From JALXCG01 sp026991065 [NCBI: Gemmatimonadota bacterium] (GTDB lineage: Bacteria; GCA-2686955): DNA of 16,588 nucleotides. A program made the translations under genes and the position numbers. The stretch is from positions 1 through 16,588 of the forward strand of contig JALXCG010000554.1 of the NCBI GenBank assembly GCA_026991065.1. Reading direction: 5' to 3'. A model generated the notes under the pieces. The model saw nothing but the letters and a program-made list of their open reading frames with translations. It was not told where the DNA came from and did not search any database. This document shows, piece by piece, positions 12,504 through 13,542 of this stretch. How positions within the stretch are numbered: position 1 is the stretch's first letter; every line of letters begins with the position of its first letter.

Positions 12504-12505
12504 CG

Positions 12506-12528
12506 AGGAGGCTGTCGCGAATTGTCTT
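12506..12528 (+). repeat. Left terminal inverted repeat
   Basis: 23 bp, starting AGGAGGCTGTCGCGAATTG and ending TCTT. It mirrors 12649-12671 with mismatches at repeat positions 6, 15 and 20. Confidence 0.6.
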
Positions 12529-12648
12529 CACGTGACACCGCGTTCGCCCCGGCTCCAACCTCTGCATCGCTGAGTCCTTAGAAAGGCAACCGACCTTCCG
12601 GAGAACTCAGCGATTTGAAGTCGAAGCAAGCCCGAAGACGGGACTTGA

Positions 12649-12671
12649 AAGCCAATGCGCGACAGGCTCCT
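12649..12671 (-). repeat. Right terminal inverted repeat
   Basis: Read on the - strand this starts AGGAGCCTGTCGCGCATTG. It shares 15 identical bases, GCCTGTCGCGCATTG, with the box behind ndk at 10812-10826, and its first bases form part of the sucD TAG stop. Confidence 0.6.
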
Positions 12672-13542
12672 AGAGCACGTTCATCTGCTGCACCAAATGC
12701 GGAATGCTGGAGGGCAACTCGGCAACCGCAACTCCGGCCGCTTCCAGCGCTTCGATCTTGGCCGCGGCGGTTCCGGAACCACCGGAGATGATCGCGCCGG
12801 CGTGCCCCATGCGCTTGCCTGGCGGCGCCGCGCGACCGGCGATGTAGGCCGCCGCCGGCTTGGACATCTTCTCGGAAATGTACGCCGCCGCCCGCTCCTC
12901 TTCGTCTCCGCCGATCTCACCGATCATTACCACCGCCTTAGTATCAGGATCGGCCTCAAATGCCTGCAGGCAGTCCAGGAAACTGGTTCCGGCAACCGGA
13001 TCGCCGCCGATGCCGACGCAGGTCGACTGCCCCAAGCCAGCGAGAGTCAAGGCGTAGACCACCTCATAGGTCAGGGTGCCGGAGCGGGAGACCAAACCAA
13101 CGTTGCCCGGAGTGCAGATATTGCCCGGAATGATGCCGACCTTGGCCTGGCCGGGGGTGATGATCCCCGGACAGTTGGGACCGATGAGGCGTGTCGGACG
13201 ATCCTTCAGGAAATCGTATACCTGAAGCATATCGTTGATGGGAACACCTTCGCTGATGCAGACAACAAGATCCATGCCCGCCAGCGCAGCCTCAAGGATT
13301 GCGTCGGCCGCGAACACGGCCGGAACATAGATCACTGACGTGTTGGCACCGGTTGCCTCCCGTGCCTCAGCCACCGAGTTGAAAACCGGGACGCCATGGA
13401 CCTCCTGCCCACCTTTTCCGGGCGTAACGCCGGCCACGACCTGTGTGCCGTATTCCTGCATCTGCTGGGTGTGAAAGCCACCATCACGCCCCGTGATCCC
13501 CTGCACGAGGACCTTCGTATTTTTATCGACAAAGATTGCCAC
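12670..13542 (-). CDS. sucD: Succinyl-CoA synthetase (succinate-CoA ligase), alpha subunit
   Basis: SucD carries the phosphohistidine and CoA site of the heterotetrameric TCA-cycle enzyme that interconverts succinyl-CoA and succinate with NDP phosphorylation. The 290 residues show the CoA-binding [18 protein letters not shown] (11-28) and [13 protein letters not shown] (38-50). Further along are [12 protein letters not shown] (121-132), the [10 protein letters not shown] loop (151-160) and the phospho-acceptor His247 in [14 protein letters not shown]. The start is a GTG at 13542 (GTG GCA ATC), with GGAG 8 nt upstream. It lies 57 nt behind sucC in the standard order. The stop codon overlaps the terminal repeat of the MITE-like element, so the last codons (MNVL) border the insertion. 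Confidence 0.96.

Follow-up and report, generated by a model that had tools for sequence, protein, structure and literature searches.

The palindromic element that adjoins the stop codon of sucD in the window, as we term the whole 16,588-nt stretch of DNA analyzed here, very probably belongs to a non-autonomous mobile family without protein genes that inserts at C-TA-G with a 2-bp duplication and may spread via a folded strand. The copy in the window is an old, decaying member of this mobile family, inserted at the stop codon.

The ends of the window copy form inverted repeats of 23 nt, 20 of which match (counted from the left end, positions 6, 15 and 20 do not), and its centre contains a perfect 10-bp stem that lies within a mechanically found pair of 21-nt arms. 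Both features had been reported in a preliminary description of the stretch and were borne out by direct reading. The same description placed a 166-bp element against the sucD stop; the contact with the TAG holds, but the element proper comprises 164 nt. The terminal repeat had further been credited with two bases of the stop codon, whereas the element actually supplies one (G) and the target supplies the TA. As to the open frames said to be missing, the element entirely contains two mechanically called ORFs that start with TTG (33 and 25 aa), and others enter from the sides, but nothing gene-like is present among them. Folding of the 166 nt yields -71.6 kcal/mol, compared with -50.7 +/- 4.6 kcal/mol for 200 dinucleotide shuffles (z = -4.5, none of the 200 as good), and the pairing runs almost the full length, beyond the ends and the centre. 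The parts are as follows:

12507-12670, minus strand (the better-folding "sense" strand, which is the sucD strand): element proper, 164 nt (GGAG...CTCC), delimited by alignment with 39 other copies
12507-12528: left terminal arm, GGAGGCTGTCGCGAATTGTCTT, 3 of 22 positions mismatching the right arm
12649-12670: right terminal arm, from direct reading and the alignment of copies
12505-12506: left target dinucleotide GA (most commonly TA elsewhere), preceded by C, here mismatched with the right side
12671-12672: right target dinucleotide TA, reading CTAG with C12670 and G12673
12610-12617, minus strand: box 1 (family CAAGGCGC, window CAAATCGC, 2 mismatches), with its first base at sense-strand nt 54
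12562-12570, minus strand: box 2 (family GCAACGCAG, window GCGATGCAG, 2 mismatches), 56 nt from the sense 3' end
12566-12614: apical hairpin with the perfect 10-bp stem 12566-12575 / 12605-12614
12670-13542, minus strand: sucD ORF, with its TAG stop (12672-12670) made of the target TA and the first element base

The flanking GA and TA are the two copies of the target duplication, which no longer match each other, and lie outside the element proper. The window copy is 83.1% identical to the family consensus and is the most diverged both-ended one among 40 aligned copies; a further both-ended copy outside these 40 (locus L065, 82.7%) is as diverged. The changes of the window copy relative to the consensus are mostly one-sided, and those at Watson-Crick pairs produce a sense-strand G.U eight times, an A.C once and non-transition mismatches five times.

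The preliminary description had suggested a search of the host genome for further copies and a comparison of orthologous sucD loci. The former returned at least 40 matches, window copy included, in the element's own genome (G000; 4.14 Mb in 902 contigs, about 84% complete), so that the copy beside sucD does not stand alone. In the stretches fetched from this genome, 65 whole or partial matches are found, 42 of them with both ends; 40 of the 42 are at least 160 nt long and 2 carry internal deletions. Of the 40 aligned copies, 26 are at least 94% identical to the consensus, some of the low values being due to truncation at contig ends. A search of 60 genomes of relatives, G000 included, gave matches in two, G000 and G001, the latter being the only genome listed as of the same family. 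G001 has its own subfamily, the consensus of 10 aligned copies being 87.9% identical to that of G000, and among the matches listed for the sucCD region against G001 (at least 40), 37 of 40 overlap the element. The sucD gene of G001 ends in ...QMGVA-TGA, and the gap to the next gene lacks the element; conservation at the same locus was therefore not seen, and the presence of the element at sucD is either not ancestral to the two genomes or was lost in G001. The element is short and multicopy, has terminal inverted repeats and contains no recognisable gene, as is characteristic of a MITE, and the initial MITE-like reading is supported by the dispersed matches, the G001 subfamily, the 2-bp direct duplications described below and the element-free sucD locus.

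Partial and altered forms accompany the complete copies. Sites matching the 13-nt end with at most one mismatch number 371, complete copies counted in, compared with 161 in a reversed control. Solitary 13-nt ends (GGAGCCTGTCGCG) without interior or partner occur at L052, L054, L055, L059, L060, L064, L067, L068, L085, L087 and L090; they are mostly preceded by pyrimidine-purine, similarity to the element is gone within 2 nt past GCG, and several lie close to gene 3' ends. At L009 (4614), L019 and L026 a further end motif, in some cases imperfect, follows a copy in direct tandem, like a remnant of a second element of which only the first 13 nt survive. The copies at L062, L075, L077 and L079 are truncated, with the broken side 1-11 nt from the called 3' end of the neighbouring gene, and at L084 (2085-2140) the left third of the element passes into another palindrome, which may be a second repeat nested there. 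Internal-deletion derivatives are found at L080, L082 and L089, and also at L159 and L160; the latter two, from Poly30, are near-perfect minimal palindromes of 32 and 68 bp.

The same ends occur under other phylum names. When 84,980 public species genomes were scanned with the pattern GGAGNNTGTYGCG-N(121-149)-CGCRACANNCTCC (permitted length 147-175), 51 stretches were obtained: Dactylosporangium fulvum contributed 23, each of 175 bp, and the remaining 28 measure 153-166 bp. The record titles include Planctomycetes/Planctomycetota, Myxococcales, Deltaproteobacteria, Thermoleophilia, spirochaetes, a Dysgonamonadaceae bacterium and Mesorhizobium, the last probably a match by chance, as well as Gemmatimonadetes ARS67 (which is G001, since G001:C8 coincides with NYZA01000008) and two MAGs without a phylum in the title. 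In Planctomycetota, the left end plus box 1 matched in 8 of 392 genomes, and families are real in only two of these (G061, 6 sites; G067, 8 sites). The remaining six are single matches, about the control count of 5, and lack the right end (5-6 mismatches); presence throughout this phylum was therefore rejected. The end-pair pattern gave no match in viral contigs, and one G000 copy gave none against plasmids and phages. Carriage by phages or plasmids was likewise dismissed, as all 30 viral matches to the left end plus box 1 lack the right end (4-7 mismatches). The sucCD region has distant plasmid matches (64-70% identity among the 20 listed), which, where annotated, are mostly sucCD genes.

Several of these carriers show peculiarities of their own. 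The stretches at L091, L095, L112 and L121, from spirochaete and Dysgonamonadaceae MAGs, have the same ends and lengths of 153-156 bp with other interiors, and possibly represent a further family. The 23 Dactylosporangium fulvum copies (among L094-L141) are centred in variable larger palindromes whose flanks pair mutually (111 complementary positions compared with a shuffled mean of 86.6 and maximum of 104), as if they had inserted into another palindromic repeat. Poly30 also has near-identical copies (L153, L154, L157 and L158) of a separate repeat, at least 200 bp long, that contains GGAGCTTGTCGCG by coincidence or descent.

The sites of insertion are marked by a short duplication. The dinucleotides flanking the element are equal in 22 of the 42 both-ended G000 copies (shuffled mean 11.9, maximum 20 in 2000), as TA/TA in 13, TG/TG in 4, GA/GA in 2, CA/CA in 2 and TT/TT in 1; the dinucleotide is preceded by C in 39 of 42 and followed by G in 33 of 42. 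Because equal pairs such as TG/TG are non-palindromic, they fit a direct duplication and not a longer inverted repeat. The Dactylosporangium copies have equal dinucleotides in 17 of 23 cases (shuffled mean 4.1, maximum 11) and the outer C and G in every one of the 23; the copies of the other carriers have equal dinucleotides in 13 of 19, which is not decisive alone (mean 8.3, maximum 14). Two groups thus show a clear 2-bp direct duplication at C-TA-G, and a third agrees with it. Since the outer C and G are nearly fixed, a 4-bp duplication of CTAG, with the element one base shorter at each end, fits equally well. The TA target and TA duplication of IS630/Tc1-type elements are accordingly present, although other dinucleotides also occur, and the CTAG duplication of the IS5/IS427 type is possible, the outer C/G being mostly fixed and the central 2 bp duplicated.

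The C-TA-G target with its 2-bp duplication also accounts for the junction at TAG stop codons. With gene ends called in the G000 loci by a simple codon-usage gene caller, 16 of the 42 both-ended copies adjoin a TAG stop made of the target TA and the element G, and at L016 and L029 one copy provides the stops of two convergent genes. Other copies lie between divergent genes (7 of 42) or inside called genes (2). Outside the elements, the same loci contain 61 CTAG sites, 12 of which would disrupt a gene if used; TAG stops make up 11 of the remaining 49. The choice of target together with the avoidance of gene damage can explain much of the enrichment at stop codons, and we therefore do not take the enrichment (16 of 42 compared with 11 of 49 free CTAG sites) as a sign of function. 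The choice of target also provides a simple reason for the undamaging build-up of small elements at TAG stops.

The interior of the element is conserved in a defined manner. Among 19 representatives, 11 are hairpins of 161-166 nt with both boxes on the same strand and 0-2 mismatches in 17 positions; CAAGGCGC starts at about nt 54-56 and GCAACGCAG ends about 54-58 nt from the other end. In none of the 11 did any of 2000 interior shuffles match the boxes as well, bearing in mind that some of these sequences are those in which the boxes were originally spotted and so do not test them independently. The other eight representatives share the ends and lack the boxes (6-9 mismatches); they are CSSed, Thermoleophilia, Dactylosporangium, four from spirochaetes and Dysgonamonadaceae, and Mesorhizobium. 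Fourteen box-bearing sequences were aligned in the orientation defined by the boxes (alignment A1), the structure being derived from the alignment and not the alignment fitted to a structure. RNAalifold predicts 56 pairs in A1, with double changes at 38 of them and 89.9% of cells able to pair. The covariation amounts to 0.581, compared with 0.184 for shuffled alignments (none of 500 as high) and 0.073-0.126 for slid controls; the 14 hairpins are not independent, as G000, G001 and the window copy provide three of them, CALHGQ two and Poly30 three, and some lineages are homologous. Wobble pairs are also kept, one pair being U.G in 11 of the 14.

Within G000, double Watson-Crick changes account for 12 cells (7 kinds) in 38 of the 40 aligned copies and fall at terminal positions 1, 6, 7, 8 and 14; in two more cells both sides have changed without pairing. 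Independent change of the two sides would be expected to give about 6 double changes. Between the G000 and G001 consensus sequences, 6 of the 11 changed pairs are double Watson-Crick changes. In box-bearing members the interior is therefore not free filler: the long hairpin and the boxes are kept, and pairing is maintained by compensating changes. The preliminary description foresaw a hairpin element; the interior boxes, the one-strand pairing and the ends in other phyla go beyond it. The window gave no match to Rfam at the gathering threshold, and with permissive settings three copies matched nothing but eukaryotic miRNA-precursor, lncRNA and CRISPR-repeat models, all below threshold; the strongest match (MIR839 on the OFTM79 copy; E 1.4e-10, 54.8 bits against a cut-off of 200) is of the kind found with long hairpins.

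The two strands of the element differ in their capacity to fold. With RNA energies, the box-defined sense strand folds better in all 14 sequences, by 1.0-31.8 kcal/mol, the values for the window copy being -86.1 for the sense and -70.0 kcal/mol for the antisense strand. With DNA energies the sense strand is better in 13 of 14; fen is reversed and the window copy nearly equal. Forbidding G.U pairs reduces the difference in 12 of 14 sequences and enlarges it in two (NCgw and fen), so that 8 favour the sense strand, 1 is equal and 5 are reversed by at most 2.5 kcal/mol. An energy-free count gives 88 G.U against 35 A.C, with G.U exceeding A.C in 11 sequences, a tie in one (2bin9) and the reverse in two (NCgw and fen). 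When 23 sequences had previously been counted in the opposite orientation, the outcome was mirrored (70 to 124); PS1 and probably others were mis-oriented in that set. One-sided changes within G000 are symmetric in kinds (G.U 19, A.C 19) but not in cells (51 versus 26, the excess being sense-strand G.U), because related copies share changes. Genes read into the copies in the sense direction 19 times and in the antisense direction 19 times, and at abutted stops 8 and 10 times, respectively. This 19:19 orientation makes it unlikely that selection on neighbouring transcripts maintains the strand-specific fold. From copies that are neutral in orientation and biased in fold, we infer that the folded single strand (ssDNA or RNA) serves the spread of the element itself, as a substrate or intermediate of its own life cycle.

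A search for the mobilising enzyme covered four transposase families in 2-13 genomes each, and no gene flanked by the element ends was found among the inspected loci of PF13358, PF01609 and PF01797. PF13358 is absent from G000 and G001; among the 12 carriers other than G000, 6 genomes have 13 loci in all, which displayed only two single, unpaired one-mismatch end matches, counted with two variable bases ignored. No end match with fewer than 2 mismatches accompanies PF01609 (18 loci of 4 genomes), and PF13340 (IS427-type DUF4096) was found only in Dactylosporangium (7 loci), 11 of the 12 carriers examined having none. The transposase or RAYT gene with the same ends that had been proposed as a check was thus not encountered, PF01797 (Y1_Tnp) being absent from G000 and present once in G001, with no end match of fewer than 2 mismatches nearby. 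Exact ends facing each other 0.2-10 kb apart were surveyed in two complete genomes (100 of 114 Dactylosporangium sites, 40 of 40 Poly30 sites). The single pair found, 955 bp in Dactylosporangium, consists of two miniature copies and was rejected as an autonomous element. The incompleteness of the MAG may hide the enzyme in the own genome.

To the observed dispersal, target duplication, covariation and strand asymmetry, the favoured explanation adds an enzyme acting in trans and a folded intermediate. Insertion would occur at C-TA-G, less often at C-YR-G, with duplication of the central 2 bp, after recognition of the ends GGAGCCTGTYGCG by the putative trans-acting enzyme. As CTAG outside genes is often a TAG stop, and TA with the leading G of the element rebuilds TAG, the protein would be left intact; the sucD copy would be a stop-codon insertion of this kind, now decaying. 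During its spread the element would use a folded single strand, either ssDNA or RNA. A stricter proposal, in which the moving form is one folded strand of fixed size whose internal-loop signal is read by a conserved enzyme, with CTAG integration and 2-bp duplication in several phyla, is put forward tentatively and appears rather unlikely in this complete form. If the movement of a folded strand is true, it would possibly represent a SINE-like or folded-ssDNA way of spreading, unlike the double-strand cut-and-paste assumed for MITEs.

It is quite possible, with a chance somewhat below even, that the family is an ordinary MITE, a shortened DDE insertion sequence either of the IS630/Tc1 kind that duplicates TA or of the IS5/IS427 kind that duplicates CTAG, its hairpin being extended terminal repeats whose pairing persists by arm-to-arm correction; this differs from the favoured explanation only in the role of the folded strand. 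The target and duplication agree with such an origin, as do the internal-deletion derivatives (L080, L082, L089, L159 and L160) and the precedent of MITEPsy1, described as duplicating CTAG or YTAA (PMC3189936). Correction of one arm on the other as template during replication could also yield part of the compensating changes without selection. Neutral correction, however, predicts perfect pairing and not kept boxes and kept wobble pairs, and fixed boxes that break the palindrome are not expected from it; moreover, none of the inspected PF13358 and PF01609 loci has paired element ends, and PF13340 occurs in one of 12 carriers. A structured RNA kept for host benefit, such as mRNA stability or processing, and spread secondarily would explain the strand-biased, covarying fold and the many copies just past stop codons; it is improbable given the balanced orientation of the copies and their mixed positions, between divergent genes and inside called genes included.

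The REP-like alternative of the preliminary description, a REP/REPIN-type repeat moved by a RAYT (Y1 HUH) transposase, receives little credence. Solitary 13-nt ends do occur alongside full elements, and palindromic GTAG REPs whose termini often give TAG stops are already in print (PMC3733652). The two genomes searched nevertheless contain a single Y1_Tnp gene, without ends, and some 165 nt is far above REP length. Duplications of 2 bp are, to our knowledge, not expected of the RAYT mechanism. For a native 3'-UTR RNA or terminator of sucCD there is practically no room: a stable fold lies directly at the stop codon and the better-folding strand is that of sucD, but this origin is ruled out by the dispersal of the element in its own genome and the element-free sucD locus of G001, and half of the gene-end readings into copies (19 of 38) are antisense. 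An intrinsic terminator was discarded, as no T run is seen by eye at either end and both orientations are equally common.

Descriptions of bacterial MITEs usually deal with one genome at a time and treat the elements as degenerate insertion sequences. The present family retains its ends, target, length, box positions and pairing from phylum to phylum, with divergence in the remaining sequence, and a folded strand as transposition intermediate is thereby directly testable. In the open-licence literature, no description of the ends, spread or internal design of the family was found; one 13-mer end occurs once, in a paper on an M. tuberculosis enzyme.

By their published descriptions, several repeats come close to the window family. 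YPAL or RU-2 of Yersinia (about 168 bp) is likewise palindromic and intergenic and of similar size, but is described with variable duplications of 3-26 bp and without TA termini (PMC2229807). GTAG REPs and REPINs with RAYT share the palindromic form and the TAG stops given by their termini (PMC3733652), as well as the solitary ends, yet they are reported to measure 20-40 bp, and the own genome of the window family lacks Y1_Tnp. MITEPsy1, an IS5-like element of 100 bp, uses a CTAG target with a 4-nt duplication (PMC3189936), a reading the window family allows; its ends differ, and 11 of 12 carriers lack an IS427-type DUF4096 gene. RUP and Correia (NEMIS) elements likewise have terminal inverted repeats, terminal TA, target duplication and stem-loop transcripts (PMC2229807). 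RUP shares its ends with IS630-Spn1, whereas no IS630-type gene with the ends of the window family was found in 13 genomes. ERIC (127 bp), described in enterobacteria with a related unit in Vibrio cholerae, is close as well: it is intergenic, has TA ends, a target duplication and a long stem-loop, and its mechanism of transfer is given as not elucidated (PMC2229807, PMC2759123). The fixed-distance boxes and the strand-biased pairing belong to the window family and were not met in the passages on ERIC. As ERIC, RUP and Correia share TA termini, duplications and long stem-loops, the kind of element, an ERIC/RUP-type MITE, is already known.
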